This document shows positions 22,315 to 45,069 of a stretch of DNA of 64,000 nt, one piece after another. The notes below the pieces were generated by a model that did not search any database, was not told where the DNA came from, and saw nothing but the letters and a program-made list of their open reading frames with translations. The stretch spans positions 43,275,025-43,339,024 of the forward strand of contig OX344763.1 in the NCBI GenBank assembly GCA_947034895.1, in the 5' to 3' direction. This DNA is from Rhytidiadelphus loreus (lineage: Eukaryota > Streptophyta > Bryopsida > Hypnales > Hylocomiaceae). Each line of letters starts with the position of its first letter. Positions within the stretch are counted from its first letter, which is position 1. The translations under genes were made by a program, and so were the position numbers.

Positions 22315-22489
22315 CAGGGTTGTCTTGTCTGACATATTTTTGGGTTTAGGCATCGTATATGACGTCTGACGTCGCGTGTCGCGTGTCACGAAGTGTCAAG
22401 TTTACTTGACATCGCGTCGCGGAGGGGTAAAAAATTTTACCCCATGGTAAATAGATTTTGCCTACGTGGCAGGGCTTCAGAACTGACGT

Positions 22490-22830
22490 GGACAGCCAGC
22501 GTGGGCGACGGCGGGTGTGGGCGCGTGCAGGTCTGCCTTGGGCGACCTCGGGTAGAAAAATTGAGGCGACTACGGGTGAAGGGGCGATTGCGGGTCAGGG
22601 GCTTTAGGGCGACTTCGGGTGAAGGGGCGACCGCGGGTGGAAAAAATAGAGGCGACTGCGGGTCAGGGGCTTTAGGGCGACTTCGGGATTAGGGGCGACC
22701 GCAGCTTCGGGTACTGAGGGCGACCGCGGGTCCGACAGGTAGGGGCGACTGCGGGTTACAAGGCGACTGCGGGTCGGAGCAGCAGACAGCGACCGCGTGT
22801 TCCAGGGCGACCGCAGGTTCAGTTTAGGAT
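22490..22830. repeat. 14-mer motif array near the left end of the giant element
   Basis: About a dozen variants of GGGCGACTGCGGGT (plus-strand reading) within 340 bp, some 180 bp inside the terminus. Subterminal short-motif arrays are typical transposase-binding regions in hAT elements. The terminal 130 bp itself matches the right terminus of the non-autonomous copies, including 'ggtaaaaaattttacccc'. Confidence 0.8.
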
Positions 22831-23339
22831 TTGAGTTTGGCATATTCAGTCTTTGAAGTAACACGTCACATAGGTGTTTTATAAGCGTAGAATTAGGTGC
22901 TACGTTATATTGGGGTTTACAATTTACAAGTGCAAATAATAGAGCCCATGAAATGTAAATTGGACAAACTTCTCTAATCCCAAAAATTCACCCAGTATAA
23001 GGCCACAATAATAATGTCAACAACAATTATATTAATTAGTCATCGATATTGCTTTGAGGCGGACTTCAAATGTAGCCATACTTGCATTGCACTTTTATAA
23101 CCTCGTTGCAGTCATCACCTAACTGCCTACCAATTACAACTCAACATATATTTTAAAACCGGTAATCTGTCCCTCACTCTAATATGCTCATATGCTTGAT
23201 GAAGCATTACAAAATCCTTACACATTAGGATGAAGGCTCAAAGCTTGAACTACAAAGATTTGCTACCTAACATATAAGCTAAAACCTTATAACTATAATT
23301 ATAACTATAACTATAATTATTGTCTACTTCTCTAGTACT

Positions 23340-26300
23340 CTAGTCACCAGGCGTGAATGTGGAATCGCTCGGCACCTCATCAGCATTAGGGTCTGTATCT
23401 TCGTAAGACTCTTCGTTGCTCCTGTTGTCGCCCGAGCTTTCGATTTCATCATCTTCCCTTGTTACTACTTCGATTTGTACCTCACGTTCTACCTCTGAGT
23501 TCAGATTTCGAACTTCTGTATCTACACCACTGAACCCTTCAGTTTGCACAAGTCGTTTCGTGAGCCTCAACGCATCCGTAGTTCCATCTATGTTGGATGC
23601 AGGGTGTCGCCTTCCTCTACTTGATTGTCCAACATTCTGGGTGGAACATCCCGCTCCAATGGTACACCGTTGGACAATTTGAGTGGGTCGTTTAGGATTT
23701 CGGGGTCCCCTCTCGTCAACCCTCCTAATACGCCTTTTCTGGCCTCTACTGTTGTGCCCCTGGATTCCTAATGATGATTCGCTAGGGCCAGACACGGATG
23801 AAGGTTGAGTGGGTTGTGGAGCTGAGCCGTGAACCTCTTCATCAATCGTCCGTAGAGCACCTCCACGCACCGGTGGCCTTGTTGGAAGGGTTGGGATAGA
23901 CCTCCTCACTGTTGCCACATTTGTAGTCGTCTCTGGATTCAATGGCACATTCCGACTTCGATTCATAACATATGCCAATGGCACATCATCATCATCATCT
24001 GTAGTAACAGTTGTTCCGAGGGTAGATGCGTTCAATACAACGGGATTTGATATTCCCTCGTGTACAACTTCATTGACTTCGATGGCCTCTTCTTCATGTT
24101 CGCTTCTCATTGGAACTTGTGCACTGCTTCTTAAATTGCGGGCCATATTTGGAGGCGAACTAGTTGATATTGGAGATCTAGCTTCTTCCTCTACGGGTGC
24201 CATGGGAATAGGTACGCCTTCGTCATTGTTGTCGGGGGTGCTTTCCCTCCTCAGTGATGCATGTGCCGGCGAAATTGCATCCATATTGTGCACGACGTTC
24301 TGCGGTGGACTGCGTACAAGTGAATTTCCCGGAGAAACATACCCATCGTCACTAAAATCAAATGTATTCCCGTATATTGGTCGTGGAGGACTATGTGGCG
24401 GCCTAACCATTGCATTCCAAGGATTGTTGCGCAACCGATCCTCTTCATCCCTGCGGTTCTCGCGTTCTCTCATAAAATCTGGAACAACGTCGTCTTCTTC
24501 CCCTGAAGACAAAGGCCCATCATGCTCGTCCTCATCGTCTCCATCTGCAAGCATCTGGTCGTAAAAAATGGCTGGGTTGTGTCCACGTTTTTGACGTTCA
24601 AGTTTGTTGTTCACATAGATATACACCAATGTCTCTGCCTTTGTCGTGGCCAAGCGGTTTCGCACTTTATTGTGCACAAAGGAATACATGCTCCAATTCC
24701 TTTCACACGAAGATGCAGAGCACGTCAAACCGAGAATTCGCTTTGCAATTTTTGGAAGAGCATTGCCCCCCCCACGATTCCACCATTGATGAGGCAATAA
24801 TTGACATTCAATGATATCGGGAGCCTCATGTAAAGGATCGAATGCACCTGTCTTCTCTTCAAATTGAGTTAGCTCCTGCATTGCTTCCACCACTGACACG
24901 TTCAATGGTACGCTCAGTTTTCGTATGACTCGATTCAAAGCTCCCTTCGCGTAGCCATTGTTATGAATAGCCTCCACGTCACTCAAGTATGGATTTAGTA
25001 GTGCCCCCGCATAGTGTAGGTCAGTAATCATCAACTTCCAGCGAGCATCAAATTGTTTCTCATATCGTGTTGCCACCACTGGATCAAGGAAAAATGGAGC
25101 ATTCTTGAGAGAATAAACGTGCTCCTTCAAGGCTGTCATCATTACTAAAGCTTTCGACATTGCCGGGACTTTTCCATCAAAATGACGAACACAAAGCAAC
25201 ACGGGCTCTACCATATGGAGGAAATTGTCGCACTGAACCCAAAACTCTTCTGAACGGATATCTTGCCTTGCAAGTTTGGCCTTGCCCATAATGAAATGTC
25301 CATTTCTGCGGTTTTGCAAACTCAACTCGAACGTCATGTATGTCTCATCCAGTGTCACGTTGTGCACTGCTTGCTTGCGGTCTACCAAACGATCAATCAT
25401 CAAGAAATTTGTGGCAAAACGTGTTTTGCTTGGAAGTCTCAACACTTTGTTTGGTGAAAATCTCCGAAACAACGCCAAAGTATGTTGGTATTTCTTGATG
25501 AACTTCACAATTGATGAAGCCTTTTTTACCAACTCCTTTACTCTCTGATCCTTTCCCCAGTCTTCTAAGAGTAAGTCCAAAATGTGTGCCGCACAACCCT
25601 GCCTATAAATGTGAGGGTACCTTTCTTCCAACCTTGCCATCGCCCCTGTCATGACTGCAGCATTGTCCGTACACAATTGCACAACGTTGGTAGGCCCAAC
25701 TTCCTCAATGTATCGTGCCATCGTCTCAGTCGTGTAAGATATATCCTTCTTTTCCCCAGTACTATCCACTGATCCCAAAAAGACATCCCCGGCGGGACAC
25801 ACCAACATCATATTTAGTAATGGCCGCGAATTAGTATCGGACCAACCATCTGAACAAATTGTCGTTCCATACTGACTTATTGAAACCCTCGTCCGCTCCG
25901 AGACCATGGCTTCAACCGATGCCTTCTTAACATCCATCATTTTCGTGCGAATCGCATTATACGGTGGCGGTTGGTACACGAATCCAGCTGCTGCAGTTTG
26001 TTTAACAGCATTCACGAAGGCCGGGTGGCGCACAACATTAAATGAAATGTTCGCCTCGTAAAAGAAAGAAGCCCACAACCTATCCAACTCTTGTCTGCGG
26101 CCCGTCTGTAATGATTCATCCATGCTTCTTTGCCGAGAAACAGATGGCATGTTCCTCCTTCTCTCAAGCGTTGTTCTAGTAGAATCTACTGAATCAGGCG
26201 TAGGATTTGGTCTTGCATTTGATTCAAAGGGATTGAGAGACCCTTCTTCTTCGACATCCAACGCAGGTGCGACAATAGACTCTGCAACATTAACTGGTGC

Positions 26301-26615
26301 ATCATGTCTAGCCGGTGCATCATACATCTCTTCGTAACTCATGGACCTTGGAACTTGCCCCTCGCCAGTCCGAAACTTTTCTCGTACAATTCTAGGGATC
26401 TCCTTACAATGCTCCGATGTAGTCGAGCCGCCATAGCCAAAGTGAATCAATGCTCTCTTTCGTACAAATGCTTTGCTCCACCCACAAAACACGCATTTTC
26501 GAGCATGGGGGGAATTATCAATTGGGGTACACGGTACTAGCCAAGGGTCCCAATCCTTTGTGGACCTCCGCATATCATTCATGGTCCCCCCCCTCCCAAC
26601 ACCTTGTCCAACCAT
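23340..26615 (-). CDS. hAT transposase with BED-type zinc finger and long C-terminal tail
   Basis: 1,091 residues from ATG 26615-26613 (MVGQGVGRGG). The frame extends upstream without another ATG. An N-terminal BED-like finger is at residues 41-70 (CVFC, then H58 and EHC at 68-70). Next comes a DUF659/RNase-H-like region with CSDGWSD, then LCTDNAAV and the following GCAAHILD. The C-terminal hAT dimerisation region has SSCERNWSMY. The two Asp and the Glu fit the hAT D-D-E triad, so it may be active. After about residue 690 there is a tail of some 400 residues, acidic then Ser/Pro/Arg-rich, unusually long for this family. It is unbroken, lies 1 kb inside the left terminus of the 22.8-kb element and reads toward it. 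It is the likely source of transposase for the non-autonomous copies with the same ends. The stop codon is TAG. Confidence 0.9.
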   Translation of the reverse strand: MVGQGVGRGGTMNDMRRSTKDWDPWLVPCTPIDNSPHARKCVFCGWSKAFVRKRALIHFGYGGSTTSEHCKEIPRIVREKFRTGEGQVPRSMSYEEMYDAPARHDAPVNVAESIVAPALDVEEEGSLNPFESNARPNPTPDSVDSTRTTLERRRNMPSVSRQRSMDESLQTGRRQELDRLWASFFYEANISFNVVRHPAFVNAVKQTAAAGFVYQPPPYNAIRTKMMDVKKASVEAMVSERTRVSISQYGTTICSDGWSDTNSRPLLNMMLVCPAGDVFLGSVDSTGEKKDISYTTETMARYIEEVGPTNVVQLCTDNAAVMTGAMARLEERYPHIYRQGCAAHILDLLLEDWGKDQRVKELVKKASSIVKFIKKYQHTLALFRRFSPNKVLRLPSKTRFATNFLMIDRLVDRKQAVHNVTLDETYMTFELSLQNRRNGHFIMGKAKLARQDIRSEEFWVQCDNFLHMVEPVLLCVRHFDGKVPAMSKALVMMTALKEHVYSLKNAPFFLDPVVATRYEKQFDARWKLMITDLHYAGALLNPYLSDVEAIHNNGYAKGALNRVIRKLSVPLNVSVVEAMQELTQFEEKTGAFDPLHEAPDIIECQLLPHQWWNRGGGNALPKIAKRILGLTCSASSCERNWSMYSFVHNKVRNRLATTKAETLVYIYVNNKLERQKRGHNPAIFYDQMLADGDDEDEHDGPLSSGEEDDVVPDFMRERENRRDEEDRLRNNPWNAMVRPPHSPPRPIYGNTFDFSDDGYVSPGNSLVRSPPQNVVHNMDAISPAHASLRRESTPDNNDEGVPIPMAPVEEEARSPISTSSPPNMARNLRSSAQVPMRSEHEEEAIEVNEVVHEGISNPVVLNASTLGTTVTTDDDDDVPLAYVMNRSRNVPLNPETTTNVATVRRSIPTLPTRPPVRGGALRTIDEEVHGSAPQPTQPSSVSGPSESSLGIQGHNSRGQKRRIRRVDERGPRNPKRPTQIVQRCTIGAGCSTQNVGQSSRGRRHPASNIDGTTDALRLTKRLVQTEGFSGVDTEVRNLNSEVEREVQIEVVTREDDEIESSGDNRSNEESYEDTDPNADEVPSDSTFTPGD

Positions 26616-26864
26616 GTAGTAGATCAACACTGGGTCTTCAAAGAAAATGACTACAATAATCACACTAATACTATGGAAGATGTAATGACAAAGCAACCCG
26701 CTTAGAGTGGTCTTGTAAACCCTTCTAAACACGGTTGTTGCCCTCCGAAGAAGTTAAACGTCCGCATGAAGCCTCTTTCGAAGGTCCAAGACAAGAGTTT
26801 TATCAACGGAGCCAAGGTGATAAAACAAGGGGTACCCCTAGAACTTTATACAAGAAAACTCCTT

Positions 26865-27200
26865 GAACCCGCGGTCGCCCCATGAGAGAATGCGGGTCCA
26901 AAAACCTGAAATCAGTCAGGTGATGGGCGACTGCGGGTCCAAGATTGGGCGACAGCGGGTCCAGAAGTGGGCGACTGTGGGTCCAGGAGTGGGCGACTGC
27001 GGGTCCAGAAGTGGGAGCCACGGGTATAGTAAAGGGCGACTACGGGTCCAGAAACAGGCGCCACGGGTATAGTAATGGGCGACTACGGGTCCAGAAACAG
27101 GCGACTGCGGGTCAGGAACGGGCGACTGCGGGACCAGTAATGGGCGACTGCGGGTCCAGAAACAGGCGACTGCGGGTCCAGGAACGGGCGACTGCCATTT
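26865..27200. promoter_or_regulatory. 14-mer motif array upstream of the hAT transposase
   Basis: About 14 variants of GGGCGACTGCGGGTCC on the plus strand, i.e. ACCCGCAGTCGCCC reading in the direction of the minus-strand transposase gene. The array starts about 250 bp before its ATG. The first unit (about 26878) is in the opposite orientation. Confidence 0.75.
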
Positions 27201-27252
27201 GTTTGGATAATTCTTGCATCCCCTGGGGTAATTTGGGGCCTATAATTGAAAC

Positions 27253-27373
27253 TATAGGCAATTTCGTTAAAATGGCGGTATTCCAGTATAATGGCACTGC
27301 ATTTGCTAGAAAATAACACTACATTCCGGTAAAATGGCAAAAAACTGCCGCCATTTTAACGAAATTGCCTATA
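27253..27373. repeat. perfect 26-bp inverted repeat with loop of about 70 bp
   Basis: Arm 27253-27278 (starting TATAGGCAATTTCG) is the exact reverse complement of 27348-27373. The loop contains a second partial copy ('ccggtaaaatggc'). It lies between the array upstream of the transposase and the 3' end of the next gene. It may be a small MITE or a structured intergenic element. No poly-T tract follows immediately, so I do not call it a terminator. Confidence 0.85.
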
Positions 27374-27796
27374 ACTATGAATTCAGAATTTCCACTAAAA
27401 AAATAAGCCTTGAAAATAAAAAATTCTAGTGTTTGCCCTGGAGTGGCAATGAGTAGGTCAATTCACCCTAGCCGTGACAATTGCTCTGAACTTCAATAAC
27501 AAGTTCTTTTCCAATCCGGCAAGTTTTGAATTTTCCTTTTTTTTTTAATTCTCTTTTAATTCCGAAAGTCCGAACTCCCAAGGTCATTTTCCTGCCAAAA
27601 TTCCTAGAATATTCAAGTATTTACAACATTGCAAACATAAATAACCAAAAATTCATATCTATATTTATGTACTCTTGTCAAGGAACTACATAGAATTCAA
27701 TGTGCTTGCATTAAAATGTTCAAAATGGATAATATCCTTTTATATATACATAAGATGGAATATACATAGTCCTCAAAAATGTGCTAAAAATGAAAA

Positions 27797-29404
27797 TCAT
27801 TCAACATCCATTTTGGCCTTTTCTTTGCGGTCATGAGCCTCACGTTCCAACTCATACAAGACTTTCCTACCTTCCAACTGCAAATTCCTAAGGTATCGGT
27901 CATCCTTCCCCAACTTCTTTTCCAACCAAAATTGCTTGTATGATTTTTGGAACTTCAAAAGCACCTTCAGTGCATCCCGATGTTCTTCCAATTTTGGATC
28001 CAATGACAAAGAAACCCCAAGCTTCTTTTTCAAGTCAACTACTTCCGTAAGAGACAATGCTTGTTTAGTAGCCACATCTTTCCAACCACACATTTCTGCA
28101 ACACGATCAAGGGGGGCTTTGTCCTTTAATGCTTTCAAGGAATTTAATCTTGATCGTGCTTCTTCCACCCCTTGCTTCTCCAAGTCTATCTGATCTTCCT
28201 CCAGCTTGCATGCTTCCATAATTTTGGCAAGCCGTGATTTCGCAAACTCATTGCTAGAAGAACTAGATCCTCCAGCATGCCGAGAAGAGAATCTAAGGTA
28301 AAATGCTTCCAAGTCTAAAATCTTTGTTATTTGCGTTGACAAAAGAACTTGCCGACTTTTAAGTTCAGCACGTAAGCTATTTACAATATCTCCACTCAAA
28401 GTTTGCGTTTTTTGATTGCGAAGCTTCTCACATTCTAGATGCTTTTCATTCAACTCATTTAGAAGCTTCTTGAGTTGAGCTATGTAAACAACTTTGGTGT
28501 CCAACATTACTGTGTCAGGGACAGTTCCATCTTCAACAAATTCCTCACTTCGGTACATGTGATCAACACAATCCAATTGGAACAAAGAAGGCTTAACATC
28601 TTCTTCTGTTTCCATCTCTGTCCAAAAAACATCATCTTCTGCTTCTTGCATGCATGCAAGCACATACTGCAAAACTTCGTCTTCTTCAGTGCGAGGGACT
28701 GTAATCGGATTCACCATAGCAAGAGGCAAAATATCAAGATTTTGTGGTTGCCTAGCTAGTTCACCCTCTTCTTCCATTGTCGGGGGAGGTAAATTTTGTG
28801 AAGTAGAAGCCACCATCGCCATGTTTTGGGGCTGCATTGGAGGGTCTTCACCAAGGTTGTCTTCCTCTCCCGAAGATGAATCAGATGACGTCCAATGAAA
28901 CTGCTCATCGGGCACTCCCTCCTTCAAGTTTTTCTTCTGGCCTAGCCCTTCACGTGGATTGGCTGATAGAGCCGCCCTTGGGATGTCTTTTGTCGGTGGA
29001 AGGCGAGCATGCTTCACTCCCTTCATTGAACTCCAATCCACGCTTCGAAACAAAATGAGTTCCGCATACACCATTGCACATATGTAATACGGGACTTCGC
29101 TCCTGGGCACTGAATATGTGCCATACAAGTATCGATAAATTTCGATACAACGTTGCACAAATGCATCATTACGGCATGGATGCAAATTGGCCGTATTGTT
29201 GCGCCGATTCGTGTAGTGCCGATGATAGGGGAATAACTTGTCGATGTGGCACCACCCCACGAAGGACTTACAAGTCTTGGCGGTCTAGTGGCCCGTAATT
29301 CGATCCCAACCTCGGTAGGCCACACACGCTGGGTCCAAAAGGATGCATCGTTGCCTAGGGTGCATGGCTCCTTTTGCCTTGGTCTTCTTCTTGTGGTCCA
29401 CCAT
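27797..29404 (-). pseudogene. cargo coiled-coil protein with the shared WCHIxKLFP domain; one in-frame UAG
   Basis: Reading from ATG 29404-29402 (MVDHKKKTKAKG) the frame is interrupted once, by TAG at 29287-29285 (codon 40), and then open for 495 codons to TGA ending at 27797. The start is supported by the shared promoter block upstream and because the residues after the stop line up with the shared domain (GWCHIDKLFPYHRH, then NNTANLHPC, QRCIEIY, VDWSSMK). After the domain come an acidic Ser-rich linker (SSDSSSGEEDN), a Met/Pro-rich part, then long predicted coiled coil to a charged C-terminus. It is paralogous to the genes at 38687-40174 and 41855-44374. Either it is newly broken, translation starts downstream, or the stop is read through. 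No known function. Confidence 0.7.
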
Positions 29405-29577
29405 TGGAGATGCTCTTGAGATTTGGGGCAAGGAATCTAAACTTAACCCCAAACCGCAAAGTATTATCTAGCTAAAGTTAACCCTAAACCGCAAAGTATT
29501 ATCTAGCGATTAGTGAGTGATGGAGTAAAATCAAGAACATGAGCCACATGTAAGTGAAACTCAAAACCCAAGCTCCC

Positions 29578-29627
29578 GGGCACGCAATCAGCTACTATAA
29601 AGTAGGTGAAAGGCAGTACGCAGCAAG
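29578..29627 (-). promoter_or_regulatory. conserved cargo-promoter block of the 27797-29404 gene
   Basis: In gene orientation it reads CTTGCTGCGTACTGCC, then TTTCACCTACTTT, then AGCTGATTGCGTGCCC. The same order (CACTGTCTTTCACCT, then GGCTG-ATGCGTGCCC) occurs upstream of the kinase-like gene (34498-34538) and the plus-strand coiled-coil gene (38429-38466). It lies about 175 bp before the ATG. Confidence 0.7.
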
Positions 29628-29669
29628 AAGGGAAAGTGGCGAAGTCGGGTGGGGAGACAGCTAATTAAC

Positions 29670-29895
29670 CCGCAATCGCCTTGGGGCGAGTGCGGGAAGG
29701 GGCGCGTGCAGGTCTGAGAGCGACCGCGGGTAGGGTGATTGCGGGTCTAAGGGGCCGACTGCGAAGGCGACTGCAGGTAGGGCGACTGCGGGTCTGGGGC
29801 TACTGGGGATGGGCGACCGCGTGTGGGGCATCACAGAGTAATTTCTGGACCCCTACAGTGGGGCGACCGCGGGTGGGCGACTGCGGGTACAGGGC
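29670..29895. promoter_or_regulatory. 14-mer motif array upstream of the 27797-29404 gene
   Basis: About nine variants of GGGCGACTGCGGGT on the plus strand, hence ACCCGCAGTCGCCC relative to the minus-strand gene, ending about 265 bp from its ATG. Confidence 0.75.
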
Positions 29896-31150: not shown

Positions 31151-31153
31151 TAG

Positions 31154-31960
31154 TCACGAACGATTTGCCCGTGGCACAAGGTTGTCCAAGTTTGCGCGAG
31201 CTTGGTTTAACCTATTATTGGTCTGCTCAAAGATATCCGTGGTGTTGATTTGAACGCTCAGAGATTGTGTAAATGCGCGTTCCTTCCTGTGCTCATCATC
31301 CTAAGGTGGAATTGTCATTAGTACATATGATATTCACAGAATGGGGTACAAACAATACTAACCTAGCAAGTATATTAACTCGTGTTGTGGTATTGCACTA
31401 ACCTTAATGAGTTGTAACAACAAGCATCCATTCTCAGACTCAGAAAGTTTCTCGACATCCTCAAATTCTTCTAATAAAGCCCTGCATCTCCCGGCCCCCC
31501 ATATCAATGAATATTAAAACATAACAACTACATATGGGTATTTTTAGCATATAATCTTATAATACAAGTTCTATACTAGAACAACCGAACCTGAGGTTTG
31601 TGCAATCTTTTCCTTGCCGAACCCACACATATTCTTCCATCATGGCCCACCCCTCCCTAATGGCCTCATCAAATTTGGCTCCCCAAACAATATCGCGTGT
31701 GTTTTGTATTAAACACATCACTCGTCCTACAGCAAATAAGCACTAATAGTGAGATGAAATGTTCACCACCAACTATCCAACTAGAAATGTTCATTAATAC
31801 ATGTTCATTTCATTATTCAAGGATTCAAATCACCTATACAAAATGAAGGGCAATATTTTACTCACCCATTTTGCTGGCTTGGAAATGGCCTTTGGACTCA
31901 TTGCATTGGCCATAATGAGCAAAGCAATACAATTTGTAGCCTTTCCAAAAGTCCTTAATC
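31154..31960 (-). CDS. intron-bearing cargo gene, four 3' exons (5' part unresolved)
   Basis: Four exons keep frame across three introns: 31960-31866 (ends ATG G, donor GTGAGT), 31726-31591 (acceptor TTGCTGTAG, donor GTTCGG), 31487-31403 (donor GTTAGTG) and 31300-31154 (acceptor CACCTTAG, stop TGA). Exon lengths of 95, 136, 85 and 147 bp and the intron phases agree at each junction. The product includes DFWKGYKLYCFAHYGQC, GAKFDEAIREGWAMMEEYVW, a short acidic helix (LLEEFEDVEKLSESENG) and a helical, Asn/Gln-rich C-terminus ending VPRANRS. I do not recognise the family. An upstream exon probably lies within 32257-32469 (MRISKPFDVEGLETAIAF), near a copy of the cargo-promoter block. It is the only cargo gene with introns, which suggests capture of a host gene. 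Confidence 0.6.
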
Positions 31961-32256
31961 CTATTTCAAAGATCACAAATCAATTCCAATAGAATAGTCA
32001 TTGTCATGGTGATTCTCCCACCTATTAAAAAGACATTGTCTACAATACAAGTGGATGACAATAAGGAAGTCAAAGGCAAACTAAACAAATTTTTACTGGA
32101 AATATTCATGGTCGAGAATAATTATGACTTCCTCTGAGCACTTGCTAAATTGAACACCTACCATTAAGCCTGTAAGGAGCCAAATAACTAATCATTAGCA
32201 ATGCAAGAAGATTAAATTTGAATAGGCTACATAACAATTGAGGCCCCCCTACGTTA

Positions 32257-32469
32257 CTATAACACCCAAAAATGAAAGAGAATCAATGAAGAACCAAATG
32301 AATCATTTTCATTTGAATTGCTAATTGTTTTAAATGTGAATTTAGTGTACCCTTTTTCGGTGACTTCACACCCATTTGTGTGTGCATCCTTATTATTCAA
32401 CAACTTTGCCACAATGAATGCAATTGCCGTTTCAAGGCCCTCTACATCAAATGGCTTTGATATTCTCAC
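32257..32469 (-). CDS. candidate 5' exon of the intron-bearing cargo gene
   Basis: An open stretch beginning ATG at 32469 (MRISKPFDVEGLETAIAFIV) lies between the promoter-like block (32582-32627) and the four supported exons. Its 3' splice donor was not resolved, so the end is the limit of the frame rather than an exon boundary. The first 45 or so residues look protein-like; the last part may be intron. Confidence 0.35.
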   Translation of the reverse strand: MRISKPFDVEGLETAIAFIVAKLLNNKDAHTNGCEVTEKGYTKFTFKTISNSNENDSFGSSLILFHFWVL

Positions 32470-32581
32470 TATCCTAAACTAATGAAAAAGATTTTGGGTT
32501 CATTGAAGTATACAAGAAGTGTCTGCTGTATTGTTGGCTGTTTGTGGGAAACCAAAAAAACCACGAGACCTCCACAACATT

Positions 32582-32627
32582 GGGCCCACATTCAGCCACT
32601 ACAAGGTAGGTGAACTACAAGGCGCAG
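32582..32627 (-). promoter_or_regulatory. conserved cargo-promoter block of the intron-bearing gene
   Basis: In minus-strand orientation: CTGCGCCTTGTAG, TTCACCTACCTT, then AGTGGCTGAATGTGGGCCC. It matches the block upstream of the kinase-like gene (TTTCACCTACCTT ... GTGGCTGGATGCGTGCCC). It is 113 bp before the candidate ATG at 32469. Confidence 0.65.
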
Positions 32628-32667
32628 TTATGAAAATTATGGACCACAGGCTGGAACAGCCCATGAA

Positions 32668-33475
32668 ATACCCGCGGTCGCCAGGGGCGCATGCGCTAAC
32701 CCTAACACGGATACTAGGGCGACAACGCATGGGGCGACTGCGCGTGGGGCGACCGCGGGTCCGGTCCAAGGATCCCTCGCGTCTTTCAAGGGCGACCTCG
32801 GATCAGGGCGACCTCGGGTCCTCGAGGGGGAAACACATTTCAAAATCCCCCCTCCATCAGGGCGACTGCGCATAGGGGGCAACTGCAGGTCAAGGAAAAA
32901 ATGCAAACTCCTTGACCCGCAGTCGCCCCCTACGCGCAGTCGCCCTAATGGAAGGGGAGGGAGACACCAAATACTTTTCCGCCCTCTATCAGGGCGACTG
33001 CGCGTAGGGGGCGACTGCGCGTAGGGGGCGACTGCGGGTCAAGGTGGGAGACACCAAAAATTTCGAAAATGCAATCTCCCCCCTTCCATTAGGGCGACTG
33101 CGCGTAGGGAGCGACTGCGCGTAGGGGGCGACTACGCGTAGGGGGTGACTGCGGGTCAAGGTGGGAGCAACCTAACTATTTCAAAATGCAATCTCCCCCC
33201 TTCAATCAGGGCGACTGCGCGTAGGGGGCGACTGCGGGTCAAGGTGGGAGACACCAGAAATTTCGAAAATGCAATCTCCCCCTTTCCATCAGGGCGACTA
33301 CGCGTAGGGGGCGACTGCGGGTCAAGGTGGGAGATACCAGAAATTTCGAAAATGCAATCTCCCCCCTTCCATCAGGGCGACTGCACGTAGGGGGCGACTG
33401 CGGGTCCCCAGATCACTTCCAAAATCAGACCTGGGGTTCTAGGGCGACTGAGCTTTAGGCGACTGTGGGTATGGG
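32668..33475. promoter_or_regulatory. extended 14-mer array with a tandem repeat near 110 bp
   Basis: Variants GGGCGACTGCGCGTAGG and GGGCGACTGCGGGTC are embedded in 5-6 tandem copies of a longer unit containing 'gtgggagacacca', 'atttcgaaaatgcaatct' and 'ccttccatcagggcgact'. The motifs read ACCCGCAGTCGCCC relative to the minus-strand gene ending at 31154, so the orientation rule is kept. Confidence 0.75.
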
Positions 33476-34090: not shown

Positions 34091-34104
34091 TCAGATTGGT
34101 TGTT

Positions 34105-34450
34105 GGTTTAGGGCGACCGCGGGTCAGGGGCGACCGCGGGTCATCGACGAAGCAAAAAACACATTTGAATCAGGGCGACTGCGGGTCGAAGAGACTTCTT
34201 TGTGGGCGACCGCGTGTGCAAGTTTCGGGATGGTTTAGTTGGTACCCGCGGTCGCCCACGATCCGCAGTCGCCCTTGATGCGCAGTCGCCCATTTCAGCG
34301 CTCCAAAAACGCGCAGTCGCCCATTCCCGCTGTCTTCAGACCCGCAGTCGCCCCTCCTCAGACCCGCAGTCGCCCCACTTCAGACCCGCAGTTGCCCCCT
34401 CCCGACCCGCAGTCACCCAAACGCACGCGCCCTGAAGCAACTTCGGGTAC
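34105..34450. promoter_or_regulatory. 14-mer motif array with orientation switch, upstream of the kinase-like gene
   Basis: From 34110 to about 34215 the motif reads GGGCGACCGCGGGTC. From about 34243 to 34440 it reads ACCCGC[A/G]GTCGCCC, about nine copies, in the direction of the plus-strand kinase-like gene. The gene-proximal side thus keeps the same orientation as at the other cargo genes. It ends about 185 bp before the ATG. Confidence 0.75.
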
Positions 34451-34497
34451 TTAAGCGTTAGCCCCACTTTCGATTCTCACCTTACTTTAGCCTTGCG

Positions 34498-34540
34498 CAC
34501 TGTCTTTCACCTACCTTCAGGTGGCTGGATGCGTGCCCGT
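34498..34540 (+). promoter_or_regulatory. conserved cargo-promoter block of the kinase-like gene
   Basis: CACTGTCTTTCACCTACC followed by GGCTGGATGCGTGCCC (34523-34538), then a T/G-rich stretch with a G run. It is the same block as at 38429-38466 (plus) and 29578-29627 (minus). The ATG follows about 90 bp later. Confidence 0.7.
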
Positions 34541-34627
34541 GGGCTGGGGTTTCAATTGGGGGGGGAATTTTTACCCTTTCAATCTACGAATTTTGAACTA
34601 CGGTTTTGAATTGTTCCTAAGTACAAC

Positions 34628-36220
34628 ATGGCTTTTCCACATGAAGGCAACACTACAAGGAGAAAGTCTTTATGGGATCTGGACCTCGATGATCCAATTT
34701 TTTTCGAGGTTCCGATAGCTGTAAATGAAAACGAAAAAGGAGGGAGTCAAGAGCGACGGAAGGGCAAGAAGCAGAAGTCAGCACATGACAAGGACTCCAA
34801 CTATCCTCCCCCGAGTTATACCCGATATGCATACGAAGCGTGTCTCCAGTGGTACGCAGGGAAAAGTGTACAATTCTTGGAGGCAAGCTATTTGAGGTGT
34901 CCTACAACTGGTAGTGTGGCCTTGCCAAACGATTTACAAGCACGGATTTTAACCAAGCTAAAGGGATCCGATGATTTCGCAGACATTGATTTGACATATT
35001 CTTCAAGACTATTTGAATGGCTTGATAACACATTGAAAGCGGTGATGTTCAATACCAAGAAATTGATGGAGGAACATCGATCGTTTCTTCCGATAGTAGA
35101 GGAATCAGAAGACATCAAGGCATTCCACCAAAAAATGGAGTGGTGGTCCAACGCAGTGAAGAAATTGGCAAGAGGCTCGACAAGGGGTTTTAAGTGGAAA
35201 AATGCAGCGGTGCAGGCAGCATTTGCACGAGATGGTGGATTGTGTATCACGTGGATCCCCGATACGGCGAAAGTGGTGCCCCTTAGTGCTTTTGAACGTG
35301 AAGGGGGGTATGCAAAAGTGCGTAAGGTACGCATTGAAGGAATGGATACAATTCCAAGCTACATCGCTTTTGCTGGGAAAGTATCCAAGGCAATAAACCC
35401 GCGCGAGGGGAGAGCGCAACGATCCATGGAGGCCCTTGCATGCCCCTTGAACCACCCTGGCATCATTAAGTTTTTTGCCATTCATTCTCGCACGAATGAA
35501 GCGTACACTTTGTGGTGGAATGGGGGCCATTTGAATGAGTTGAGGCATTTAGATCGTTCTATATCACCAACCATTGACTGGCATGAAATGCAAAAAGCCA
35601 CAAGACTTCCTGAAGAGAAACAAAAAGAACTTGGTCTCTTCCGAAGGCACAAGGCAAAGTTGGCATGGGCTTTAGTATATGTGACAAATCTCATGCACAA
35701 GTGCCGCGTGCTACACAATGACTTGTCTCCCATGAACATCATGTTGCATTTTCCGGATTATTCAAACGACATAATCAACATTGGAATTTGTGATTTTGGA
35801 ATATCAAGTCGTTTTGACGAAAACGCGCCTTCACATTTTGGAAAGCCATCTGAGGCCGAGAGGGATCAATACCGAGAAGGTCGTTGGTGGGTTGCCCTGG
35901 AGTTGTTTTATGCATATGGACCTCCAAATTCCGATACAAGCATACCGATCATGCAACAACGGTATAAATATACGCAACAGTCAGACTCGTATTCTATTGG
36001 GAAGTTGACCGAATGGATGAGAATTGGTGATATAGACGATTGGGACAAGGATTTGTTCAAGAACCGCGAGGGATCAATGTACTTTGGAATGAAGTTGCGT
36101 GAACTCGTGAACACTGATCCAAAGAAGAGACCAACGTGTATAGAGATCACAAATTCCCTTATGTCTCCACCATGGTCCATGATGCCCCCCGAATTGGTGT
36201 TCCGAGACTCACCTTTGTAA
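34628..36220 (+). CDS. protein-kinase-like cargo protein, single exon
   Basis: 530 residues, unbroken, no introns. The first 215 residues are a basic start and a helical region of no known family. The kinase-like domain runs from about 218 to 520. Visible parts: a degenerate Gly loop (EREGGYAKVRKV, 223-234); candidate ATP-binding Lys at 251 or 254; a helix-C Glu in RSMEALACPLNHPGIIKF; the catalytic loop HNDLSPMN (363-370, the HRD position being HND); DFG at 389-391; an altered APE region (WWVALELFYAYG); a helix-F Asp in QSDSYSIGKL; and DPKKRPTC near the end. Catalytic Asp365, Asn370 and Asp389 are present, so it may be active, although the Gly loop is unusual. It lies between arrays in the giant hAT element and has the shared promoter block. 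Ser/Thr kinase is the likely type, but the substrate is unknown. Confidence 0.75.
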   Translation: MAFPHEGNTTRRKSLWDLDLDDPIFFEVPIAVNENEKGGSQERRKGKKQKSAHDKDSNYPPPSYTRYAYEACLQWYAGKSVQFLEASYLRCPTTGSVALPNDLQARILTKLKGSDDFADIDLTYSSRLFEWLDNTLKAVMFNTKKLMEEHRSFLPIVEESEDIKAFHQKMEWWSNAVKKLARGSTRGFKWKNAAVQAAFARDGGLCITWIPDTAKVVPLSAFEREGGYAKVRKVRIEGMDTIPSYIAFAGKVSKAINPREGRAQRSMEALACPLNHPGIIKFFAIHSRTNEAYTLWWNGGHLNELRHLDRSISPTIDWHEMQKATRLPEEKQKELGLFRRHKAKLAWALVYVTNLMHKCRVLHNDLSPMNIMLHFPDYSNDIINIGICDFGISSRFDENAPSHFGKPSEAERDQYREGRWWVALELFYAYGPPNSDTSIPIMQQRYKYTQQSDSYSIGKLTEWMRIGDIDDWDKDLFKNREGSMYFGMKLRELVNTDPKKRPTCIEITNSLMSPPWSMMPPELVFRDSPL

Positions 36221-38020: not shown

Positions 38021-38024
38021 TGGA

Positions 38025-38402
38025 CCCGCGGTCGCCTGGGACCCGAGGTCGCCCAGGACCCGCTGTCGCCCAGGACCCGCGGTTGCCTTCGCAAAGTGGA
38101 CCCGTGGTCATCCTGGACCCGCGGTCGCCTAGGACCCGCAGTCGCCCTGGACCCGCGGTCGCCCACTCGCCCGGGCTCCTTCGACCCGCGGTCGCGTTGG
38201 AGCACCTGTCCAGACCCGCAGTCGCCCCACTCTAGGACCCGCGGTTGCCCTCGAGCACTTGCGCTGACCCGCAGTCGCCCCACTTCCGGACCCGCGGTCG
38301 CCCTGGAGCACTGGGCTGACCCGCACTCGCCCCACTTCAGGACCCGCACGCGCCCCAGGGCGACCTCGGGTACATCAGCGTTCTCCTCCACCTGCAGTCG
38401 CC
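38025..38402. promoter_or_regulatory. 14-mer motif array upstream of the plus-strand coiled-coil gene
   Basis: About 16 variants of ACCCGC[A/G]GTCGCCC, in the direction of the plus-strand gene at 38687, ending about 285 bp from its ATG. Frames on both strands through this array are repeat artefacts. Confidence 0.8.
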
Positions 38403-38428
38403 ATTAAATTTTCCCTGGCATTCTGCAC

Positions 38429-38466
38429 ACTGTCTTTCACCTGCTGACGTGGCTGAATGCGTGCAC
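38429..38466 (+). promoter_or_regulatory. conserved cargo-promoter block of the 38687-40174 gene
   Basis: CACTGTCTTTCACCTG, then GGCTGAATGCGTGCAC (38451-38466), then a G run. It is the same layout as at 34498-34540. Confidence 0.7.
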
Positions 38467-38686
38467 AGAAGCTAGGGGTTTGAGTTGTGGGGGGGGATTT
38501 TTGTCCCTTTGCACGGCTCATTTTATTCACGCTTGGATGACATAGGGTGTTTCACGAGAACATTGTATTTTTGTAAATGTTAAATGTGATAGGATTACGT
38601 TTAGCATTTTTTACACCTACGGTTTAGGCTTGCAACCCTAAACCGCATAGTACTTAGTTGGCTACTTTTGAGACGAAGTGATCATT

Positions 38687-40174
38687 ATGGAGGGCGAGGA
38701 CTCTCAACCGCCACACGGTATGTCAAGATACCGACTTCGGCTCAACAAAAAGGCGGTTTGTGACAAGGATCGTAAAAGGAGCGGCGAACCTCGCAAGAAG
38801 CGTGTACCCATCTTGTTGCATCCAAAGATGAAGGCCTTTTTGGGATGGGAAGTAGAACCAGAGCCTTGGACATATGAAACTGTAAACAAATATGTGGATT
38901 GGTGCCACATCAACAAGTTGTTCCCGTTTTGGCGACACCCTTTGCACGTGAAGTCTAATAAGGCAAATTTGGCTTACTGCAAGAGTGTTGTCTTCCAGCG
39001 AAGGTGTTTGGAGGTATGGCAGCAACTCTATTTGGAGTCCCAGCCTTATCGAAATGACAACTTCTCTTTCTATCTTGTGCAAATGGTGTACGTTGAAGTT
39101 CAATTGAAGAAAAAGGTAGATTGGACAACCTTGAAGGAGCTTCCTATCGGTGACCGCCCGGACAGACCGATAGTGCTGGATGAAGGACTTCTTCAAGCAA
39201 ATCAAAAGCTTTTAGAGGCAAAGCCTGACAAGTTGGCTGTTGGTGATGACCAAGTTCAATGGTCTTCAACTTCTAGCTCAGATGAGCACACTCACGAATA
39301 CGATGGATATTCTTTTGAGAGTGACGACGAAGACATTGGCAAAGAAAAACAAGAGGCGGCTGAGGACGTTCAAGTTGACAAGAAGGGAAAGAGGAAGCTT
39401 GAGGAGCCACAATCATTGTCCAAGATTCAAAAACAAAGCGAAGATGTTCATGTACCGATCAATGTGGACCGTTCTGGTGCAGACATTGGGTCTAGCGGAA
39501 GTAGTGACAATGATTCGGAAGACAATTTGGAGATGTTGGGCACTAAGATCAAAAGTGCACGAGCAGCTTTGACTTCAACAGTAGCGGATCTTATGAATTT
39601 GAAAGAGAAGGTACAACATCTTCCAATGAATCCAACTGTTGTGGATGGGTTGAAGAAGGAGTTAGAGGCGACTGAAAACGCCGTTGCTGAAAATGAGAAG
39701 ATTTACTCTAAGTTAAACAAAAGTAGAGTAAATTATTTCAAGAAGATCGAAGACTGGCGAGCACACATTTCCGATGATTTAGCGGTGCTTCAAAATAAAC
39801 TTGATCTTTTGCAATGTGATAAATGGTCCCATCAAAGCGAAAGGAGAAGCTTGAATCTTCAAATACGTGAGCTAGAGATGGAATATTATGATGATGCCTT
39901 AAAAGAAGCCAAAAAAGAGGGCATCTTGGCTTTAGCTCCAGATTATGGTAGCAATACAGAAGAAAGAGCAACGCTTTTTTATTTGGTGAAGCTACTGGAG
40001 AAAAAACAAGAGTTGTTGCACAAGGGCATATTGGACTTGGAGCGCCACATCCTTTATTTTAAGGAATGGCGCAAGTGGGCCTATGAAGGCATAGGTGCCA
40101 CCCGTGTGGAACTTCAAAGAATGAGACCAAAGCCCAAAGAAAGTGACTTTGTGAATAGTGAAAAAAATGCTTAG
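38687..40174 (+). CDS. cargo coiled-coil protein with the shared WCHIxKLFP domain
   Basis: 495 residues from ATG 38687 (MEGEDSQPPHG); the frame is open a little upstream but has no other ATG. A basic N-terminus precedes the shared domain at about residues 40-155: GWEVEPEPW, KYVDWCHINKLFPFWRH, NKANLAYCK, RRCLEVWQQLY, VDWTTLKEL. Then come an acidic Ser-rich linker (SSTSSSDEH, ESDDEDIGKE), a Lys-rich stretch (KKGKRKLEE), and about 200 residues of predicted coiled coil (280-485). It is unbroken and intronless, with stop TAG. It is paralogous to 27797-29404 over the whole length and to the RING gene in the N-terminal domain. Function is unknown; the arrangement suggests a scaffold or nuclear adaptor. 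It is convergent with the RING gene across 1.7 kb of AT-rich spacer. Confidence 0.75.
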   Translation: MEGEDSQPPHGMSRYRLRLNKKAVCDKDRKRSGEPRKKRVPILLHPKMKAFLGWEVEPEPWTYETVNKYVDWCHINKLFPFWRHPLHVKSNKANLAYCKSVVFQRRCLEVWQQLYLESQPYRNDNFSFYLVQMVYVEVQLKKKVDWTTLKELPIGDRPDRPIVLDEGLLQANQKLLEAKPDKLAVGDDQVQWSSTSSSDEHTHEYDGYSFESDDEDIGKEKQEAAEDVQVDKKGKRKLEEPQSLSKIQKQSEDVHVPINVDRSGADIGSSGSSDNDSEDNLEMLGTKIKSARAALTSTVADLMNLKEKVQHLPMNPTVVDGLKKELEATENAVAENEKIYSKLNKSRVNYFKKIEDWRAHISDDLAVLQNKLDLLQCDKWSHQSERRSLNLQIRELEMEYYDDALKEAKKEGILALAPDYGSNTEERATLFYLVKLLEKKQELLHKGILDLERHILYFKEWRKWAYEGIGATRVELQRMRPKPKESDFVNSEKNA

Positions 40175-41850
40175 TGGTTGGATCTAGTGTGGTAGAAAAA
40201 AACAATTTGGCCTTCCAATTTTTGATTTTCCAAAGTTTTTGTGGAATAAAGAAATTCACACCTTTGTTTTTGAAATGTACATATGTTTTTATTATATTTT
40301 GAATACGAGGGCTATGAATTTGGTGTCTTTGCAAGAATGGATGTCAGAGATGGTACCTACGGGCTGAAATTTGGGACTGAATTTTTGAAACTTTATTTGA
40401 AGATAGAAAAAACGATTACCTTTGTGGTAATATAACTTTTTTTCCAATCGGTGCCCGGGAACAAAAGTTATGCCCATATAGTCCAAACTCCAAAGCAGGG
40501 GAGAATGGGCAGCAAAAAAATGTGACAAGCATTTGAATTTATTTTTCTAAGTTTTTTTCCCTCATAGATTATAATTTTGTCTATCCGGAAAGCTTTTTTT
40601 CATTTCATTTGGATATTTTATGAGAAAGTTATGGACAATCTTGTTTATTGGGCAATTAGAGCTTCTGGTGGGAAAAATACCTTGTAAGATTAATTTAGGA
40701 ACGCAATTTTGGCAATTGTTCAAGAAAAGAAGTTTGACATGGTTTAGTTTGCTTGCAACAACAATTTGACCGTGGGGATTAGTGCATTTTAATTCTATCT
40801 TAGAAAGAAAATAGATTTTCATTCAATCTCATATGTACTTCTATTCTACAAGTTTTTTAAGAATGAAAATTAAGTTTTTTTGAAAACCTTTTTTTTATTT
40901 AGACTCTCAACTCAATTCTCCACTATATTTGTTTAAAGCTCAAAACTCTGTAGTGCAAGAAATTAAAGTGAAAAATGTTAAAAGTCAAATAATGTAGTCC
41001 AGCAATGTGCTGAAAAAATTGTTTTTTTCACTCTAAATGCGGATATCTTGCAAAGTTGCAATCTGTAAGATGAAAAATTCTGAAATTTTTTCCACACATT
41101 CTCATACTAGTAAGGTGTAAGATCCTATGGTTATGTGTGGGAAAAAAACAATTTTCAAAAACAATTTTGGATACTTTAAGAAATTGTTGAGTAGAAGTAG
41201 GTAAGATGTAGTTGTAGAATTTAAATAATGAATATCTCTAAAATGAAATGAAAATGGTGAGAGTGTGCTATCAAGTGAAGTTAACTATGTGACCGGACCT
41301 AATTTTTTTTTAGATTGTAGAAATTGCCTGGAGAAACAAATCCTACAAGCAACTTTTAAAAGAAGAAGCTGTAGACTCAAGTTGCCCACCAAACAAAATG
41401 GTCCATAACTTTCTCATAAAAAATCTGAATGGAATGAATCAAATTTTTCCATGTAAACAAAAACATGTTGTATGAGAAAAAAATCCAAAAGGAAAAAATT
41501 CATTAAAAGATTTGAAGATAGCAATTTTGTGGGGACCGTGTATGGAATCATTGTGCGAGGCATTACAACAAATGTATTTGCATTTCACCAATTACATTTT
41601 AGGCTACAAATGTATAAGTATGCCCAAACCTTCAAAACCAAAGCAATAGAAGGTTGTTGTCCATAAGCATAGTAGTACAATACACAGCCAAGGCGGTATA
41701 GTTTTAGAAGCCAACATCTTAACCCTAACTTTTGCTAGAGTACTACATTGTGCGAGTATGGATATACTATGGCCCTTATACTATGGGCCTTACATCTTGT
41801 ATACTACTACGATTAACTAGAACCACCGTTGAAGTAAGTATCTCATAGAA
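40175..41850. repeat. AT-rich spacer related to the bodies of the non-autonomous hAT copies
   Basis: No gene. Stretches such as 'gaaattttttccacacattc' and 'caagatcctatgg'-like sequence (about 41085-41135) match about 20400-20455 of hAT copy 1. About 40560-40690 ('ggaaagc', 'tttcatttcatttgg', 'atcttgttt') matches about 19890-19985. So the body of the small elements has a diverged relative inside the giant element, consistent with the small ones being internal-deletion or rearranged derivatives. Confidence 0.6.
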
Positions 41851-41854
41851 ATAT

Positions 41855-44374
41855 TTAATTCAAGTCCATTGGATTGTTCTGAGAACCACTCGTTGCACCT
41901 TGTTCGTAATCATTGGACTCTCCAACAACGAGTTTCTTCTTAGCACGAGTCCTTGAAGCAGGTCCATCTGCTTCTAAAATAGATTCCAAGACATTGGAGT
42001 TCTTGAGAGCTTCAAGTGTCCTTTTAGTTTGCGGAGAGTGTAACTCCAATAGATAATCGAGTGCTTGGCTTTGATAATAAGGCCCGTATGTTGAGTCGAG
42101 GTAAGCCATACTATTCAAGTCTTCTGGAGTGGCATTTTCATCACGATTAGCCCCTTGTTCACCTTCAAAATTCCAACGGTGTCCTTTCGGATGAGCACCC
42201 CACTTGAAGGTTTGGGATGTCTTATCAAAATATCCACCAAGGCATTGAAAAAAAACCGCCCTCTTCCCTACATTGTGAGCTCCTTTTCCCATAAGGTTGA
42301 ATGCCACTCTTAGAATTTCACGCGGGTCCATTTCCCAATTCAATTGTGAGGCAGCAGCTCCCATTTCTTGATCATATAGGCCTTCTCGCTAACTCCAAAG
42401 CAAGTCTCGTCCCCAAAATCGTGTCTCTGCCGTCGTGTCTCTATTGTGTTCCCAAGAAGGTGGCATGTAAGTCATCAAGTTGAACATGGTATACAAGCGA
42501 TCATGGAATGGTGCTGCACAAATCACACATCGTCGTCTAATCAGACATTGAGTGATGAGACACTGAGGATGGTACACATGTGTACATGATCCAAGTGCCC
42601 ATCCTCCTTCTGGCCCAAATTGTTCTAGACATATGGGGCATTTGGTATGATCCAAGACAAAATGAGCTGGCTTTGGCCACAATAGACTTTGGTCTTTTTC
42701 GTTGAAGTGACTAGACATCTGATTTCCATGGTCCCAACCATTTTGTGCCCAGTCTATGACATTTTTTTCCGCCACGTCAAGCATGGACATGTTATCCGGA
42801 AACATGTCCTCCATCAATGCCCATGATGTCAATCCATTCTCTTGTTTAGGGGCATTTGCTACAAAGTTCTTCGAAACTTTGTCTAGCTCTTTCGCAACTT
42901 GTTGAGATCGATCCACGGAGAGAATGCACACGACCTTCCAATGATAGTATGTCGTTGCCAACACTGCCAACTTCTCTCGAAGCATTGTATTTTCCTCAGC
43001 CAAATCAAGTTCCTTTGATGATTGTAGATGTGGAATGGCAGGAAACGAAAGTGAATCCTGAGTCCCGTGCAAACCATCAACGTGCGGATTGCTAGAATCT
43101 CTTGAGACGAACGGAAGTGGTGCCATTGGAAGAATTGAAGAACGCTTCGTACGCTTGGCAGGGGGAGAAAGGTGAATGACATCGCTGGTGAGGTCCCCAA
43201 CAAGCTTGTCCAAGTGATGTGGATCCTGCTCAACAAAAGTTTCGTCCATGTCCGACAATGTGAAAGTCTGACGCTCTTTTTCTCGAAGACCTTGTAATTC
43301 TTTGGATTGTTGAGAAATGAGAGCATTTTTTTGTTCACATGTAGACCGCCATTTCTTCACATCACCTTCTAAGGTTGCAATTTGTGCATCCTTGGTCTTC
43401 AAGAGGTCGAGAGCCTTTGCCAACGTCATCGCATTGTGAACAACATCAGATTCAGACTGTGGAATGGGAATGTGACTTCTGGCACATACGGGCGAGTCGT
43501 CACTTAAAGCAAAGTCGAAGACGTTGCTGGCGTCTTGTGGTGGCAAGATTGGAGTCGCAATTGTGGTTGAGGCTGATGCCAATCTAATTTTCGTGGTGGA
43601 CCGTCGCACCTTGGCAGGATGTTTCATCTTCTTTCCCCGCGATGATGAAGCGGCTTGAACATTTGGATTTGGAACTGGAACTGGAACTGGAACTGGAACT
43701 GGAACTTGGACGGGGGTGATAATCTGCTCCTTCACTCGTACAAGCTTAGGAATCCGTGTGCCATCTGAATCATTATCCTCTTCTGATTCTTCCGTGTCCA
43801 CCTTTTGAGTTTCTTTGTTTTGTGGATTACTTCGAAAAGGCCCAAGTCCACCCTCTGGAAATTTCAGAACTCCTCTTGGAATTATTCCAACTTCTGGACG
43901 CTCCACGTAGGTACTTTCTTTGATCGTGGTCCAGTCAACTTGTTTGTTCAAGGCGACCTCAACATAGGCACCTCTAGCAATGAACAAAGGGGCCTCATTC
44001 CTATCTACAAAAGGGGTTTTGTAGAGGACCTGCCACAATTCTAAACACCTTCGTATGAAAGCTGGATTTTCACAATACTTCAAATTTGCCTTGTTATTGT
44101 GTCGGTTGTGATGATGGCGCCATGCCGGAAAGAACTTCCCGATGTGACACCATTCAATGTAGTCTTCGCACACCTGCATACTCCAAGGCTTTGGCTCCTC
44201 GTTCCACTCTTTGAAAGCTAGGTAGTTATCATTGTTCAACACATGCCATCGCTTCTTGTGAATGTTACCCCTCCTTTTTCTAGTCTTGTCTTTGGCAGCC
44301 TTCCTAATTGCACCAGGAGTGCGTACAATGGAAAAAACCGGAAGGGACCCATCACTGCTACCTCTAGTTGCCAT
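41855..44374 (-). pseudogene. cargo RING-H2 protein with the shared WCHIxKLFP domain; one in-frame UAG
   Basis: ATG 44374-44372 (MATRGSSDGSLP). 661 codons are open to TAG at 42391-42389, then the same frame continues for 177 more codons to TAA at 41855, so the gene spans 839 codons with one internal UAG. Order: basic start (KDKTRKRRGNIHKKR); shared domain at about 50-170 (WNEEPKPW, YIEWCHIGKFFPAWRH, NKANLKYC, RRCLELW, VDWTTIKES); a Pro-Val repeat near 235; a coiled-coil stretch near 330-390; RING-H2 at 579-619 with CPIC, CTHVYHPQC and CVIC ligands. RING-H2 proteins are usually E3 ubiquitin ligases. The part after the UAG (VGKRAVFFQCLGGYFD, PKGHRWNFEGE) is conserved-looking but unknown. The 661-residue form already keeps the RING, so the truncated protein could work. 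It is the cargo gene nearest the right terminus. Confidence 0.8.
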
Positions 44375-44444
44375 GAGATTTGCGGACGTTGCAAAATTCT
44401 AAGAACCAAATGATAGCAAAAAATAGTATATATATTATCCAAAA

Positions 44445-44463
44445 GGGTCACGCATGCAGCCAA
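44445..44463 (-). promoter_or_regulatory. conserved cargo-promoter core of the RING gene
   Basis: In gene orientation TTGGCTGCATGCGTGACCC, matching the GGCTG-ATGCGTGCCC core of the other cargo promoters. It lies about 70 bp before the ATG, with a TATA-like 'tatatatta' between. The remnant of the older copy (about 21880-21900) has the same core with one change. Confidence 0.65.
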
Positions 44464-44539
44464 CAAAGGTTGCAAGACAGAAAGCCTCAATGGAAAATGA
44501 AGGTGATAGCATGATGATGGGCTACTGGCTATATAGGGC

Positions 44540-44935
44540 GAGTGACTTCGGTCTAGGGGGGCGAGTACGGATAGGGCAACTGCGTATCTAGCGACTGCGG
44601 GTCTGGGTAGGGCGACTGCGGGTCCGACGTGGGCGACAGCGGGTCTCGAGAGGGCGACAGCGGGTCCAAATTGGGCGACTTTGGGTCCACCACCGGGTCT
44701 AGGTACCTTTTGCGCACCCGCGGTCGCCCACCCAAGAACACTTCCTGAACCTGCGGTCTCCCTGCCAAACCCGCAGTCGCCCACCCGCGGTCTCCCTCAG
44801 AAATCCGCAGTCGCCCACCTGCAGTCGCCCTCGCCCACCCGTAGTCGCCCACCCGCAGTCGCCCTCGTCCACCCGCAGTCACCCACCTGCAGTTGCCCCT
44901 ACCCGCACTCTCCTACCCGTACGCGCCCTCCAGTT
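44540..44935. promoter_or_regulatory. 14-mer motif array at the right end of the giant element, upstream of the RING gene
   Basis: From about 44545 to 44690 the motif reads GGGCGACTGCGGGTC, i.e. ACCCGCAGTCGCCC relative to the minus-strand RING gene. From about 44715 to 44935 it reads the other way. The array therefore serves as both the gene-proximal array and the subterminal array of this end. Confidence 0.75.
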
Positions 44936-45069
44936 TGCCAAGTGGATGCCATGTGGCATCCACCTGGAGGGGGGTAATTTCCTGTAAAGTCAAAGGTAAA
45001 TTTGACTTTTCGTGACGTCGCGCGACGTCTGTCTGTCGCGGTGTCGCGCTGTCGCAGCGAACAACCCTG

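Follow-up and report, generated by a model that had tools for sequence, protein, structure and literature searches.

Ordinary hAT transposons are a few kilobases long and carry one or two genes. The 64,000-bp stretch of the moss Rhytidiadelphus loreus analysed here (C3:43275025-43339024 of a 407-Mb genome; hereafter the window) contains a larger element with hAT ends, element A, which occupies positions 22315-45069 of the window and spans 22,755 bp. It is proposed, with a probability of roughly 85%, that element A represents a giant hAT family of ~22.7 kb, in which six genes form one unit and are integral to it in a broad sense. Element A shares with the plant DUF659 hATs (Ac/Ds kin) the DUF659 and dimerisation domains, the CERNWS motif, a terminal inverted repeat (TIR) of the form [T/C]AGNGNNG and an 8-bp target-site duplication, whereas it differs from them in its length of ~22.7 kb and its six genes.

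Accessory genes beside the transposase are also found in VANDAL elements, which belong to the MULE superfamily. In Arabidopsis, the VANC proteins of VANDAL elements are reported to strip methylation, and their targets are often tandem repeats, while VANC21 is located in non-coding regions (PMC5735166). Element A resembles these elements in having accessory genes near its transposase and a short motif repeated in tandem within its non-coding parts, whereas its transposase is a hAT enzyme and kinase and RING genes are present in addition. The element proteins scanned gave no MULE- or VANC-type match in Pfam, where VANC itself was not compared directly.

The cargo of the fungal Starships varies between elements. 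Starships are described as using a tyrosine recombinase with DUF3435 (PMC12506042), encoded by their first gene; this domain is absent among the element proteins scanned against Pfam. Like them, element A is giant and combines a transposition enzyme with several further genes; unlike them, it encodes a hAT transposase, shows a single gene set across the five fully read copies and has many ends per genome. An earlier note on this DNA had proposed a plant counterpart of Starships, of which the plant origin is supported, as the genome contains a LEAFY SAM domain (E = 1.8e-27) and the LEAFY family is not known outside plants, whereas the likeness to Starships is not supported, the gene set being constant in 5/5 copies. 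In fish, Teratorn is fused with a herpesvirus. It is reported as a giant many-gene DNA transposon, piggyBac-like and 180 kb long (PMC10175614); element A is likewise giant and multi-gene, whereas no viral gene was seen in it. ToxhAT/ToxTA of fungi, a 14-kb DNA transposon with ToxA, also carries a non-transposition gene and differs in its TA duplications, its 74-bp TIRs and its one copy per genome; despite the name, its authors consider it a likely Tc1/Mariner element (PMC12506042).

No giant multi-gene hAT was found in the literature searched, which consisted mainly of papers available without subscription, with Repbase outside the search; ToxhAT was the one cargo carrier encountered there under a hAT name. 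The whole word hAT is absent from a review of giant eukaryotic transposons (PMC6431247) and from a review on the capture of genes in plants that dates from 2026 (PMC13317346). The element is new within hAT by its size and gene content, an earlier description being possible.

The ends of element A and the sequences that adjoin them are as follows.

21499..22314, reverse strand: remnant of an older copy that hosts element A, with the 5' part of the RING gene and the right array (window self-comparison)
22307..22314, unstranded: left target-site duplication CCCACTCG, 7/8 against the right one
22315..22323, forward strand: left TIR CAGGGTTGT, end of element A
45061..45069, reverse strand: right TIR ACAACCCTG, end of element A
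45070..45077, unstranded: right target-site duplication CCCACCCG, 7/8 against the left one
45070..45278, unstranded: rest of the older copy's right end, on the far side of the insertion (window self-comparison)

The left end reads CAGGGTTG, which agrees with the terminal consensus published for plant hATs, [T/C]AGNGNNG (PMC6027215), and it is mirrored on the right. The chance of a match of at least 7/8 between two random 8-mers is p = 3.8e-4. In the self-comparison of the window, positions 21499-22317 and 44082-44858 are 90% identical. An older copy of the element's own right end is thus split by 22315-45069 with the 8-mers at the joints, which indicates a single insertion with hAT ends rather than two ends that face outward by chance. 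The termini which the earlier note had placed at 22315 and 45069, 22,755 bp apart, are borne out.

The two ends were then located in the genome, where all counts are lower bounds. A 286-base left-end query gave at least 40 matches scored at 97-100% identity, including the window's own (693 first-look candidates), and a 170-base right-end query, for which 40 of 569 candidates were scored, gave at least 41 matches at 85-100%, among which are the right end of element A itself and that of the older copy next to it. Besides element A, four copies on C3 and C4 were read through, and their 8-bp duplications are all perfect: c24 (22,714 bp, CTCCCCGA), c11 (22,682 bp, GGAATGAT), c16 (23,030 bp, GTCAGGAT) and c23 (22,538 bp, GTTACAAT). 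They are colinear with element A over 22.5-23.0 kb, and the same genes are present in all five fully read copies, namely the DUF659/hAT transposase, the kinase, the RING gene, P535, P496 and a multi-exon gene. Six further giant copies were checked over a 0.9-kb stretch where the right end was predicted to lie, and a right end with a matching 8-mer was present in five of them, perfect in L018 and L022 and 7/8 in L009, L014 and L027. The 8-bp duplications, which the earlier note had named as a check, were accordingly found in 10 of the 11 giant copies for which both ends were checked (six perfect and four at 7/8).

The giant unit bounded by the ends of one hAT family, as the earlier note described it, holds, since the same gene set lies between the ends in 5/5 fully read copies. 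The opposite reading, in which 22315 and 45069 are the ends of different short hATs, could draw on two nearby short elements in the window that share these ends. It is refuted by the colinear unit of 22.5-23.0 kb with perfect duplications at four other loci and by the five more copies with both ends at the predicted distance and duplications of 7-8/8. Large near-identical blocks would by themselves also be compatible with segmental duplication or another form of repeat spread instead of transposition. However, over 0.5 kb on the left and 1.5-2.0 kb on the right, the sequences that flank the other four full copies match neither one another nor the flanks of element A at E = 1e-3, and each copy has its own 8-bp duplication. 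The only flank among 20 left flanks that matches the element is that of L019, with 98.6% identity to the transposase gene, and L019 is therefore nested in another giant copy; the flanks of element A resemble the element because element A sits inside the older copy. Spread by duplication of genomic segments is thus refuted as well.

Of the 39 other left ends, 20 were sampled over the first 9.5 kb inward. Transposase DNA was present in 17/20 and P535 DNA in 16/20, some of it partial, and in L021 the similarity to the element stops at base 3664. Three of the 20, L020, L025 and L026, are short internal-deletion derivatives built from element bases 1-827 and ~8050-12058, which include gene 3 and two arrays, with L026 less complete. 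The right end is kept in L020 (5,287 bp, duplication 7/8) and L025 (5,313 bp, 8/8) and was not found for L026. These three suggest a deletion family that retains gene 3. A left end at C1:73014040 and a right end at C1:73027517 lie in like orientation ~13.6 kb apart, perhaps as a shorter derivative.

The pairwise identity of the five full copies is 98.1-98.6%, gaps excluded. Their variants comprise 749 found in a single copy and 81 that are shared, which indicates a star-like burst. C>T or G>A changes account for 561 of the 749 single-copy variants, and 210 of those 561 are at CpG. This pattern is consistent with a burst in the recent past and subsequent decay of DNA that, judged from these changes, would have been methylated. 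From the ends, the duplications, the constant content in five copies and the burst, it is nearly certain that 22315-45069 is a mobile unit of the cut-and-paste hAT type.

The six genes of element A are listed below, where aa denotes amino acids and ORF an open reading frame.

23340..26615, reverse strand: hAT transposase, 1091 aa, uninterrupted ORF in element A, with DUF659 and a dimerisation domain
27797..29404, reverse strand: P535 gene, 535 codons including the shared N-terminal domain, stop at codon 40 in element A
31154..32480 (about), reverse strand: gene 3, multi-exon, GT-AG exons read by eye, 5' end uncertain
34628..36220, forward strand: divergent protein kinase, 530 aa, Pkinase 8.3e-10, frame open in element A
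38687..40174, forward strand: P496 gene with the shared N-terminal domain, 495 aa in element A, long single frame
41855..44374, reverse strand: RING protein gene with the shared N-terminal domain, ~835 codons, stop at codon 658 in element A

The transposase, which had been called apparently intact, is indeed unbroken over its 1091 aa in element A. Its Pfam matches are DUF659 (1.8e-36) and Dimer_Tnp_hAT (2.2e-4, barely at the cut-off of 21.4 bits), and it contains the motifs DGWS at 256, CTDNA at 315 and CERNWS at 637, to which a catalytic meaning is assigned. It is free of stops and frameshifts in 4 of 17 full or near-full copies (A, L014, c11 and c24). A search at E = 0.001 gave 193 relatives, with identities of up to 74% over 76% of the query among the best 120 of 193. 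Among the matches listed, the closest are unnamed and the named ones are mostly plant proteins, with one labelled as a Bacilli metagenome-assembled genome; the moss relatives are from Physcomitrium, at 40% identity with 47% of the query covered, and from Ceratodon, at 40% and 68% with 50% and 12% covered. Together with the LEAFY domain, these relatives mark the host as a plant and point to a moss.

All five non-transposase genes of the earlier note are present, while two of them, P535 and the RING gene, have longer frames than it had given, each with a stop in element A. The 425-aa ORF at 27797-29074 is the C-terminal part of the P535 gene because of the stop at codon 40, and the separate ORF at 41855-42364 is the 3' part of the RING gene because of the stop at codon 658. 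The P535 frame is open in 4 of 14 fully covered copies (L009, L022, L028 and c11), the kinase and P496 frames each in 3/5 full copies, and the RING frame in 1/5 (c23, 835 aa). The intron-bearing gene corresponds to gene 3 with its several exons, whose 194 assembled residues gave no Pfam match. The kinase-like gene is confirmed by its Pkinase match and its open frame; K251, E268, D365, N370 and D389, which we take to be its functional residues, are conserved in 5/5 full copies, and its APE motif reads ALE at 423-425 in element A, where P424 is L, with S in c11. It has 66 relatives at E = 0.001, of which P0001-P0005 are full-length, 48-69% identical and located on other contigs. P496 has 10 relatives, and P0067-P0071, also on other contigs, are 45-49% identical over 95-99% of its length; P0069 comes from the same 6460-base contig as the kinase relative P0001. 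The RING gene stands, its RING matches being under the Pfam cut-offs (1.3e-5, 25.2 vs 27 bits). For the two proteins which the earlier note had labelled coiled-coil, a word of its own, long helices appear in a low-confidence structure model of P496.

P535, P496 and the RING protein have in common an N-terminal domain of ~150 residues, with 35-44% identity, E-values from 6e-29 to 6e-35 and W, C, H, R and F positions that do not vary. The domain is new, and the three genes are paralogues. A virus-derived composite of the Teratorn kind, which the large size and the several non-transposase genes would suit, is very improbable, as the element proteins have no viral Pfam family above cut-off, the three of them compared with PHROGs gave no viral family there, and the kinase and P496 have no IMG/VR relatives in two scans.

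For the motif ACCCGC[A/G]GTCGCCC, a search that tolerated no more than 2 mismatches gave 99 matches in element A and between 91 and 103 in each of the four other full copies. The arrays of this motif in element A are as follows.

22503..22818, forward strand: left subterminal motif array, GGGCGACYGCGGGT reading inward, 13 matches
26867..27177, unstranded: array upstream of the transposase, 10/11 in sense
29668..29888, unstranded: array upstream of P535, 8/9 in sense
32670..33470, unstranded: array upstream of gene 3, 20/23 in sense, with the gene start set at 32500
34111..34418, unstranded: array upstream of the kinase, 8/12 in sense, the gene-proximal ones
38024..38403, unstranded: array upstream of P496, 15/16 in sense
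44589..44686, unstranded: array upstream of the RING gene, 5/5 in sense
44716..44898, reverse strand: right subterminal motif array, mirror of the left, 10 matches

The window contains 145 matches, compared with 0, 0, 0, 1 and 2 after five rounds of local shuffling, and the regulatory arrays which the earlier note had ascribed to the element are thereby borne out. None of the 99 matches lies in the five single-frame coding regions of element A (10.5 kb, gene 3 being outside this test). An array precedes all six genes, and 66 of the 86 matches within 1.1 kb upstream are in the sense orientation of the gene; of the other 20, 10 constitute the right subterminal array, which adjoins the RING gene. 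The left and right subterminal arrays (13 and 10 matches) are mirror images.

The gene order and content are constant in five copies and each gene has the common motif array, which suggests that the genes are integral parts rather than loose cargo. Alternatively, host genes may have been trapped once between hAT ends and copied without a role, for example by macrotransposition, which is imaginable because in the window the unit lies between short elements that share its ends. The several introns of gene 3, the commonness of RING and kinase domains in hosts and a ratio of nonsynonymous to synonymous polymorphism (pN/pS) within the burst mildly below 1 would agree with such captured passengers. 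This origin is nevertheless unlikely, as every gene, the transposase included, has the common array, mostly in sense, three genes are mutually paralogous, and full-length relatives of the kinase and P496 exist on other contigs. It is therefore probable that the accessory genes are integral and not passengers.

Several results weigh against the proposed giant family of integral genes. L010 has no right end or element sequence in the 0.9-kb stretch where it was expected, and of the 10 duplication-bearing giant copies, five are known from their ends only, with their middles unread. Most copies are broken somewhere, and 0/5 fully read copies keep every one of the five long frames intact. Within the burst, the accessory genes show no clear sign of selection (pN/pS 0.49-0.69, with many post-insertion changes), and shared variants alone give a pN/pS of ~1.1 for the transposase. 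The shared N-terminal domain has no match in Pfam, in PDB sequences (best E 0.11) or in Foldseek (E 0.001), so that DNA binding by it is a guess.

Two short elements with the ends of element A lie on either side of it.

15215..20882, reverse strand: short element with the same ends as element A, flanked by GCGGTGAC and CCGGTGAC, 7/8 duplication
54314..59492, reverse strand: short element with the same ends as element A, GTGGTGTC on both sides, perfect 8-bp duplication

The second of these starts within an ORF at 53642-54424 and probably breaks a gene. Between element A and this short element, two arrays of one 128-bp unit occupy 46271-47525 and 52587-53132. At 7030-9914, two adjoining ORFs, the second with DUF7869 (2.6e-39), may be one split gene.

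With regard to the mechanism, homology suggests that the DUF659/hAT transposase excises the element at its CAGGGTTGT ends and inserts it again by 8-bp staggered joining, and the inward-facing subterminal arrays may help the transposase complex to assemble. The motif before every gene suggests that the gene set would answer to one regulator encoded by the element; its position at promoters and near the ends is what is expected if one DNA-binding factor acts at both. By analogy with VANC, the likeliest regulators would be P535, P496 and the RING protein, as activators or anti-silencers at the arrays, a role to which we give somewhat less than even odds. The kinase and the RING protein might modify the transposase, the regulators or host silencing factors. 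A hAT-borne regulatory circuit, in which the new three-paralogue family, the kinase and the RING ubiquitin ligase all act via one 14-bp motif, is put forward more tentatively still. If it is true, all genes and the transposition complex would be turned on or off jointly and protected against silencing by the host, and this would be the first such hAT known.

The efficiency of DNA transposition has been reported to drop above 6 kb of cargo (PMC6431247). Despite this size penalty, hAT ends are able to bound and spread a 22.7-kb block of six genes in a plant. The near-identical copies, with open and broken genes, and the short derivatives provide a natural system for studying accessory-gene function and the evasion of silencing, in which both the N-terminal domain common to three proteins and the set of genes marked by the motif are new, concrete components open to testing.

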